NCBI GenBank assembly: GCA_022572885.1
Contig: JACZVC010000010.1
Coordinates: 17,998-81,997, forward strand
Direction: 5' to 3'
Length of the DNA stretch: 64,000 nt
Origin: Pseudomonadota bacterium
GTDB lineage: Bacteria > Pseudomonadota > Gammaproteobacteria > Steroidobacterales > MnTg04
The notes under the pieces were generated by a model, which searched no databases, was not told where the DNA came from, and saw nothing but the letters and a program-made list of their open reading frames with translations. Numbering within the stretch: position 1 is the first letter of the stretch; every line of letters starts with the position of its first letter. A program made the position numbers and the translations under genes. Shown piece after piece: positions 24,718 through 25,184 of this stretch.

Positions 24718-24889
24718 TGTCGCTTATTATAACCACAGCTTGGTCTGTAGCCTAAGGACGTGGTTCTCGAATTATTGTCTTGAATATTGAAGCGCAAAAA
24801 GGCGAGAATTCGCATCGGTATGTGCAGCAGTGAATCTCATCCCTCCCTCTCCGCATCGGATGGTGTGGCGGTTGAAGGGGAAACAGTTT

Positions 24890-25058
24890 GGAGAGGTGGC
24901 AGAGTGGTTGAATGCGGTGGTCTTGAAAACCATTAACGGTTTGTAGCCGTTCGGGGGTTCGCAGCCAAGCCTTGCGCAGCAAGGCGAGACGACGCCGGCT
25001 TCGCCGGCGCCCGCAGGGTGAACTCGCGCAGCGAGTGAATCTCATCCCTCCCTCTCCG
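24890..25058 (+). pseudogene. tRNA-Ser(UGA) copy interrupted in the T-loop by a structured insert
   Basis: Bases 24890-24961 are identical to the intact tRNA-Ser at 25094-25165, including acceptor 5' strand, D-arm, anticodon loop with TGA, long variable arm and T-stem 5' strand through TTCG. Then 76 nt (24962-25037) intervene before AAT, an extra CTCAT, and the matching T-stem and acceptor 3' strands (25046-25057) plus the discriminator G at 25058. The halves could still pair, giving a tRNA-like fold with a very large T-loop, but the normal CCA is replaced by CAT. It is probably not a working tRNA unless the insert is removed. Confidence 0.75.
24962..25037 (+). repeat. 76-nt multi-hairpin insert within the T-loop of the duplicated tRNA-Ser
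   Basis: Three perfect hairpins with 3-nt loops: GCCTTGC-GCA-GCAAGGC (24969-24985), CGCCGGC-TTC-GCCGGCG (24993-25009) and ACTCGC-GCA-GCGAGT (25022-25036), plus a small CCC-GCA-GGG (25010-25018). No open frame and no similarity to a group I intron core are visible. It looks like a non-coding structured repeat or a REP-like cluster. Another GCA-triloop hairpin sits between two other tRNA genes at 30509-30523. Confidence 0.7.
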
Positions 25059-25093
25059 CATCGGATGGTGCGGCGGTTGAGGGGAAACAGTTT

Positions 25094-25184
25094 GGAGAGG
25101 TGGCAGAGTGGTTGAATGCGGTGGTCTTGAAAACCATTAACGGTTTGTAGCCGTTCGGGGGTTCGAATCCCTCCCTCTCCGCCA
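25094..25184 (+). tRNA. serT: tRNA-Ser(UGA)
   Basis: 91 nt with encoded CCA. Acceptor GGAGAGG (25094-25100) pairs with CCTCTCC (25174-25180), discriminator G at 25181, CCA at 25182-25184. The anticodon loop CTTGAAA gives anticodon TGA (25128-25130). The long variable arm is typical of type II serine tRNAs, and the T-loop is TTCGAAT. It decodes UCA and wobble UCN codons. It is the intact member of the tandem pair and ends 21 nt from the purK stop. Confidence 0.97.

Follow-up and report, generated by a model that had tools for sequence, protein, structure and literature searches.

A tRNA-Ser(UGA) gene copy split in its T-loop by an RtT-like hairpin cassette, and the occurrence of related cassettes at bacterial tRNA genes

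In this study, we investigated a stretch of 64,000 nucleotides from a gammaproteobacterial genome (hereafter the window), in which the gene for tRNA-Ser(UGA) is preceded by a second copy of its 5' body that is interrupted in the T-loop by a hairpin-rich insert. The explanation we prefer, with a probability of about 0.6, is that this copy was split by a divergent RtT-like cassette, which is likely a small mobile piece of DNA that enters tRNA genes at GA^A(T)-type sites and would be transcribed within the 5' leader of the working tRNA. The four-hairpin cassette family exists and covaries, as presented below, and from sequence we infer the mobility of the cassette, its transcription in the leader and the loss of tRNA function in the split copy.

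Organization of the split tRNA-Ser(UGA) copy

One intact tRNA-Ser(UGA) gene was detected in the array (Table 1), and the upstream copy was recognized neither by ARAGORN nor by Rfam at gathering score. The preliminary description had reported the 72-nt 5' body of this tRNA twice, identical and 204 nt apart, which we observed to hold at 72/72 positions with the starts at that distance. It had also placed an insert and then a tRNA 3' end behind the upstream body; this layout stands, with the length of the insert corrected from 76 to 82 nt by exact matching. In the split copy, the body and the insert are followed by ATCCCTCCCTCTCCGC, which represents 16 of the 18 nt of the tRNA expected 3' of the T-loop and is without CCA. 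The same 16 nt are present a third time with a similar spacer after them, so the repeat is a tandem unit of 205 nt, arranged in the order of tRNA 3' end, spacer, tRNA 5' body and insert. This third tRNA-Ser 3' end with its spacer (24829-24889) had been missed earlier. Detection by a tRNA program, a complete acceptor and a CCA end, which a functional tRNA would display, were all lacking in the split copy. Upstream of the array, a simple scan of the region detected no sigma-70 site, and the block conserved there is a promoter region by presumption.

Table 1. Features of the tRNA-Ser(UGA) array in the window
Feature	Position	Strand	Basis
Conserved block, presumed promoter region	24778..24818	+	conserved across a four-genome alignment of the genus
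Third tRNA-Ser 3' end (first unit, body lost)	24839..24854	+	exact repeat D3; decayed counterparts in G001 and G003
Spacer, first unit	24855..24889	+	inside repeats D1 and D2
tRNA-Ser(UGA) 5' body of split copy, to T-loop	24890..24961	+	72/72 identical to intact gene
RtT-like cassette in T-loop	24962..25043	+	R1 match 24959-25046, 23.5 bits, E 1.4e-6
Hairpin 1, GCCTTGC-GCA-GCAAGGC	24969..24985	+	sequence, fold
Hairpin 2, CGCCGGC-TTC-GCCGGCG	24993..25009	+	sequence, fold
Hairpin 3, CCC-GCA-GGG	25010..25018	+	strongly conserved part of the family; alignment of cassettes, R1 alignment
Hairpin 4, ACTCGC-GCA-GCGAGT	25022..25036	+	sequence, fold
tRNA 3' part of split copy, without CCA	25044..25059	+	16/18 nt retained
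Spacer 5' of intact gene	25060..25093	+	inside repeats D1 and D2
Intact tRNA-Ser(UGA) gene	25094..25184	+	ARAGORN; Rfam tRNA 60.3 bits

The cassette family and its relation to RtT

The insert contains hairpins 1, 2 and 4, which are perfect and have 7, 7 and 6 pairs around loops of 3 nt, and the short hairpin 3. Its fold energy is unremarkable (z -0.92 for 24960-25060, and z -2.52 for the split copy at 24890-25062), and fold energy alone was rejected as evidence because it is not significant; it is the comparative evidence of a covariance model, R1, that makes the insert more than a set of chance hairpins. A cassette located 5' of tRNA-Ser in a relative (L066) resembled the window insert, and a search with it through 246 genomes of the order returned many copies, the tally of 179 genomes including matches to the tRNA 5' end of the query. 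Copies were noticed near tRNA-Ser, Met, Gln and Gly genes and near tmRNA. R1 was built from 27 of 30 gathered cassettes, one of them from another contig of the window's own genome; the window's cassette, one of E. coli and the odd L101 were excluded, so that the model holds neither the window insert nor any E. coli cassette. The 27 cassettes share a common plan of hairpin 1, GACG, hairpin 2, CCCGNAGGG, YGAG, hairpin 4 and GAGTC, with pairing in 92.8% of 587 cells and changes on both sides at 16 of 22 pairs. Such double changes occurred in 81 cells; shuffling gave 22.3 and sliding of the partners no more than 18. In the 88 R1 matches from named genomes, both-side changes were noticed at all 22 pairs, in an alignment that is fitted to R1.

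Within the window, R1 recognized the insert as its only significant match (next best, 7.5 bits), with an E-value of 6.1e-5 when taken over the whole own genome. The alignment is carried by the hairpins and the CCCGCAGGG block, and the tRNA-derived left flank fits poorly, so that the tRNA is not the source of the score. Comparatively, the window cassette is divergent, as its 23.5 bits lie in a range of 17.4-88.9 with the middle near 50 in one set of 96 R1 matches. An error of assembly, or hairpins formed by chance, is hardly credible as an explanation: the genome is a draft of 66 contigs and the fold energy of the insert is inconspicuous, yet the R1 E-value speaks against chance, and an assembly artefact behind the split copy appears unlikely because the spacers of the units differ and the layout recurs at seven other loci.

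The preliminary description had pointed to the tyrT-linked repeats of E. coli as relatives, and this proved the right lead. On 52 kb of E. coli DNA, R1 matched only the tyrT RtT repeats at E up to 10, with five matches of 14.2-19.6 bits, one repeat being counted twice in two overlapping loci. In Serratia marcescens, tandem repeats were found behind tRNA-Ser(GGA), four of which scored 55.4-55.9 bits with the Rfam model of RtT (RF00391, gathering cut-off 45 bits) and 54.3 bits with R1. Since the Serratia repeats pass both models and R1 finds the E. coli RtT, R1 and RF00391 describe one family. RF00391 itself gave 16.5 bits on the insert (E 2.04, 24940-25052), with no other match in the genome of the window at E up to 10. 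On other cassettes, its full-length matches stayed below the cut-off, at 27.8 (L086), 33.4 (L105) and 40.5 bits (L328). Over 14 genomes, it displayed matches in nine at E up to 10, none above the cut-off; as it also matched 4 of 14 control genomes at this level, E. coli among them, weak RF00391 matches alone prove little. The E. coli unit, which is matched by RF00391, reads ...CTTCGACCAAGGTTCGA[core]AATCCTTCCCCCACCACCA, that is, the end of the variable arm and the T-arm 5' strand, the core, and the T-arm 3' strand with the CCA end, most of the tRNA 5' body being absent. It thus has the same T-loop split as the window, contrary to the earlier view that an insert placed in the T-loop sets the window apart; the distinction of the window is its complete tRNA 5' body.

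Other families were tried as well. Further Rfam families (sX4, plastid UTR) stayed below threshold and fell mainly on tRNA bodies, and AaHKsRNA22 and asX2 gave a few scattered matches on cassettes. The cassette of L107 scored 45.8 bits with AaHKsRNA22 against a cut-off of 39.8, and that family may hold a relative. A hammerhead-like ribozyme, considered on account of a GATGAG motif in leaders, was rejected, the Rfam tables of the examined loci containing no ribozyme family, and TwoAYGGAY, considered for loops of the AYGGAY type, was absent from the Rfam table of the examined loci.

RtT repeats are already known, and we take RtT to be represented in Rfam as a single family tied to enteric tyrT genes. 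On a weak test, the novelty lies in the breadth, the positions in T-, D- and anticodon loops, the antisense copies and the full-body split copies, as none of the matches listed from the open-access literature dealt with these. One published survey excluded tRNA-related clusters (PMC2267715).

Split copies at other loci and in related genomes

Among the loci looked through, not exhaustively, eight including the window carry a tRNA body split in the T-loop 5' of an intact copy (Table 2). Their inserts span 69-83 nt by exact matching, and the starts of the two bodies are 167-225 nt apart. The tRNA 3' part after the insert is 9-12 nt long in seven of the eight and 16 nt in the window. In L093, L154, L169, L312 and L326, it was observed to be cut at a nearly identical point and to be followed by GG.

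Table 2. Loci with a T-loop-split tRNA body 5' of an intact copy
Locus	Origin	tRNA	Body identity to intact copy
Window		Ser-UGA	72/72
L312	same genus	Ser-GGA	65/73
L093		Ser-UGA	72/73
L154	Woeseiaceae	Ser-UGA	68/73
L220	Wenzhouxiangella	Ser-UGA	72/72
L169	Nevskiales	Ser-GGA	73/73
L326		Met	58/58
L334		Arg-CCU	59/59

When the cassette was removed from the window split copy, ARAGORN read the joined flanks as tRNA-Ser with 6 of 6 end pairs, the exact ends being uncertain by 1-2 bases. The same removal gave a tRNA in 4 of 104 tested cassettes, namely L312, L326 and L334, which rejoined at 10-11 of 12 end offsets, and L093, which did so at one of 12; the other 100, most of which have no full tRNA body, were negative, and the test left out L154, L169 and L220. 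This rejoining is what one would expect if the insert were removed from the RNA to give a second working tRNA-Ser, a possibility we regard as very improbable given the missing CCA, the shortened 3' part in 7/8 loci of the layout and the result that no intron or ribozyme family reached the Rfam gathering score in the window. The suggestion of a processed split tRNA finds no support in these loci, seven of which keep just those 9-12 nt and all eight of which, having been picked for the layout, hold an intact copy behind. Since it has no CCA end and has an intact neighbour, the split copy is probably a non-working tRNA, and in this respect the alternative suggestion of a dead duplicate is probably right. 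A one-off decay is contradicted by the seven other loci of the same layout and by the covariation throughout the family.

The split copy could also be a functional tRNA-shaped regulatory leader, in which body and cassette fold and govern how the downstream tRNA is processed or terminated. In six of the eight loci, the body equals the intact copy or differs from it by one base, the hairpins are kept by compensatory change, and rttR is annotated as a small RNA in E. coli K-12, all of which would agree with such a role. Recent duplication or gene conversion also gives identity of the bodies, however, and the five changes in L154 and eight in L312 make this role rather improbable. The full-body split copies themselves suggest an origin of RtT units, namely tRNA genes that were opened at the T-loop.

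Within the genus, three genomes (G001, G003 and G004) harbor the locus with one intact tRNA-Ser and without the split copy, and no close match to the locus was found in a fourth, G002. In the four-genome alignment, the site of the first unit holds decayed tRNA 3' ends and the spacer in G001 and G003 and neither of them in G004, and the extra unit is confined to the window genome; the alignment is also compatible with an old array that lost copies in the relatives. In G001, a unit was further detected behind tRNA-Gln, and in G004 one follows a displaced 3' half of this tRNA; in the window's own genome the displaced half has no unit behind it, the correspondence of the sites having been judged by eye. 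This presence and absence fits either gain or loss. In two own-genome loci (L339 on contig C1, L344 on C47), an integrase-like frame, recognized by eye, was noticed just behind tRNA-Gln(CUG) and the displaced tRNA-Gln 3' half on the other contig; probably, an island resides in this tRNA-Gln(CUG) gene.

Cassette positions, spread and comparison with known systems

For the distribution of positions, we classed 173 R1 matches of at least 70 nt, 79 from 80 named loci and 94 from 60 stretches of ten genomes, the window's own included. Selection biases this sample: a tRNA 3'-end pattern served to choose the named loci, and the other stretches were taken for having matches. In 62 of the 173, the cassette is situated behind a tRNA and is followed by a copy of that tRNA's 3' end; 51 of these lie 57-90 nt behind the tRNA and 11 further away in arrays. 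Another 19 are behind a tRNA without such a copy, 19 are 5' of an intact tRNA, and 73 have no tRNA nearby within the DNA examined. The insertion point in the T-loop is GGTTCGA^ATCC in several tRNAs, the window junction being off by about one base; in the D-loop of tRNA-Ser, it is GGTTGA^ATGC or GGTCGA^AAGC, and in the anticodon loop of tRNA-Ser(CGA), CTCGA^AATC. Matches of at least 70 nt in the named loci displayed GTTCGA on the left in 56/79 and ATCAAT or GTCAAT on the right in 67/79, the latter count being partly a product of selection, as these loci were picked by a pattern containing RTCAAT. The same junctions were found in 27 and 39 of the 94 less selected matches, respectively.

In G056 and in the window's own genome, dispersed copies were detected inside tRNA-Phe 3' halves, some of them antisense to the tRNA, and the tRNA-Phe pieces on the two sides fall within positions 29-60 and 58-76 of this tRNA. 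Seven loci, L308 (own genome, contig C59), L279-L283 and L307, represent such dispersed halves with a cassette in or near the T-loop, and those of L282 sit between ordinary-looking genes. Seven other cassettes of G056 (L269, L272, L274-L278) resemble one another in their inner flanks (GGAAGTAA... and AACCGAGCCATGAAG), and by eye their outer flanks look like inverted repeats specific to each locus. Cassettes were also noticed behind tmRNA in L080, L084 and L293, with a copy of the tmRNA 3' end after the cassette in the first two, and in L336 the cassette end overlaps the stop codon of a reading frame that by eye resembles a tyrosine recombinase.

Units behind tRNAs start with a leader that has partial complementarity to the tRNA 3' end. 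In 24 of the 62 leaders, the motif GATGAGAA was found with at most one change, as compared with 2.0 in shuffled leaders; E. coli RtT also harbors it, exactly or with one change. Pairing of the leader to the tRNA 3' end averaged -23.2 kcal/mol for the own leader and -18.4 kcal/mol for leaders of other isotypes; in 359 of 1406 comparisons, a foreign leader paired equally well, and among the 62 units the own leader was strictly best in 28. Support for this pairing is moderate.

An old, vertically inherited RtT-like RNA gene, spread only by tandem duplication and unequal crossing-over, would make the window unit another tandem copy. Tandem cassette arrays do occur (L314, L349 and L168), decayed tRNA 3' ends remain at the corresponding place in G001 and G003, and the 205-nt unit is a plain tandem repeat. 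Nonetheless, we consider this origin unlikely, although it deserves more weight than the other alternatives, as crossing-over is a poor fit to a cassette found with various tRNAs, in any of three loops, in either orientation and also apart from tRNAs.

With respect to the spread across genomes, R1 at an E-value of 1e-4 had matches in 119 of the 246 order genomes, in 128 of 274 sampled from the class and in 84 of 299 sampled from the phylum, with 62 of the last 84 lying outside the class; each tally includes the window's own genome. The class was taken to be Gammaproteobacteria, as the R1 matches on contig C140 of G367 coincide in coordinates with those of L178, a named gammaproteobacterial record. 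An RtT-related core with strong covariation is present in nearly half of the sampled class genomes, in or beside many tRNA genes. These searches applied stricter filters and scored at most 15-18 candidates per genome, and copy numbers are lower bounds. All 14 chosen genomes, mostly picked for showing copies, displayed R1 matches at E 1, up to 37 in one. The pattern behind the named loci, in which RTCA takes the place of the T-arm before a tRNA-Ser 3' end, was found in at least 118 stretches, 80 of which were made into loci; on these, R1 gave 88 matches at E 0.1, including Woeseiaceae, Wenzhouxiangella, Ectothiorhodospiraceae, Spiribacter and Sedimenticola. Outside the phylum, Chlorobium ferrooxidans harbors units behind tRNA-Ser genes (40.6 bits with R1), and matches in Verrucomicrobia and Opitutales are weak (at most 22.7 bits) and were not relied on. 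Viral contigs yielded no exact match to the tRNA-Ser 3'-end pattern. With one cassette as the query, the phage and plasmid collections returned four and five records, respectively, all from Salmonella or Serratia, and several of them resemble pieces of chromosome by gene content. Four Salmonella loci (L348, L350, L351 and L352) carry single cassettes of 47.5-57.1 bits with no tRNA found nearby, and in three of the four a sub-threshold isrH match adjoins the cassette.

Since the cassette is found inside or just behind several kinds of tRNA across Gammaproteobacteria, a small tRNA-targeting mobile element is likely. According to this preferred explanation, the loop sequences of tRNA genes would offer GA^A(T) sites at which a small hairpin cassette enters. 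Insertion would occur at the DNA level and without target duplication, in view of the tRNA that is rejoined on removal of the cassette where bodies are complete, and of those cassettes that run antisense to the surrounding tRNA piece; on the latter ground, insertion at the RNA level into tRNA loops was set aside. A single tRNA gene would hardly tolerate an insertion without an intact copy, which would explain the intact neighbour: the working copy may survive by tandem duplication, or the inserted segment may restore a working copy. The array would then be read from the conserved block at 24778-24818, with the split copy within the precursor of the working tRNA and subsequently trimmed off the transcript.

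The Y1 transposase was examined as a possible driver. Y1 genes were present in 73 of 119 cassette genomes versus 25 of 127 others of the order, in a count that ignores kinship, yet no match to PF01797 was obtained in the window's own genome (draft, 66 contigs, 96% complete) at E 1e-5, and this driver was rejected. As a wider proposal, which we offer tentatively and to which we would give slightly less than an even chance, RtT repeats may be the visible part of a widespread, gene-less four-hairpin DNA element that homes to tRNA loops on either strand, carries tRNA pieces and makes dispersed repeats of tRNA 3' ends and whole bodies, which would make it an equivalent in bacteria of the tRNA-derived short interspersed elements. 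Should the cassette be mobile, a common small element would have its home in tRNA genes; should it be immobile, a structured RNA of wide occurrence would be made beside tRNA genes with no function assigned to it.

Comparison with known systems places the insert nearest to RtT. In both, a hairpin core with CCCGNAGGGYGA lies between the T-arm 5' strand GGTTCGA and AATCC with the tRNA 3' end, and the units are in tandem. E. coli units are located behind tRNA genes, whereas the window unit is 5' of one; at their start they also have a short leader (GGATGAGAA...) that is complementary to the tRNA 3' end, and in the place of this leader the window harbors the whole tRNA 5' body. Because the window copy falls below the Rfam cut-off and has no RtT leader, we call it RtT-like and not a member of RF00391, and by its significant score with a model built without it, the copy belongs to the R1 family as a divergent variant. 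REP elements with their RAYT (Y1) transposases are likewise small, hairpin-rich and dispersed, as are further non-autonomous hairpin elements of the IS200/IS605 type, and the cassette may resemble them in inserting without target duplication; it differs in residing in tRNA loops with tRNA pieces, and in that its own genome displays no match to the partner Y1 transposase of such elements. Islands and prophages that integrate into tRNA genes by tyrosine integrases leave tRNA 3' parts copied to places separate from the intact tRNA genes, and such parts are found here too, with one cassette unit (L097) behind a displaced tRNA-Gln 3' half; the window unit, in contrast, is gene-less and 205 nt long, and the tRNA piece it retains is the 5' body.
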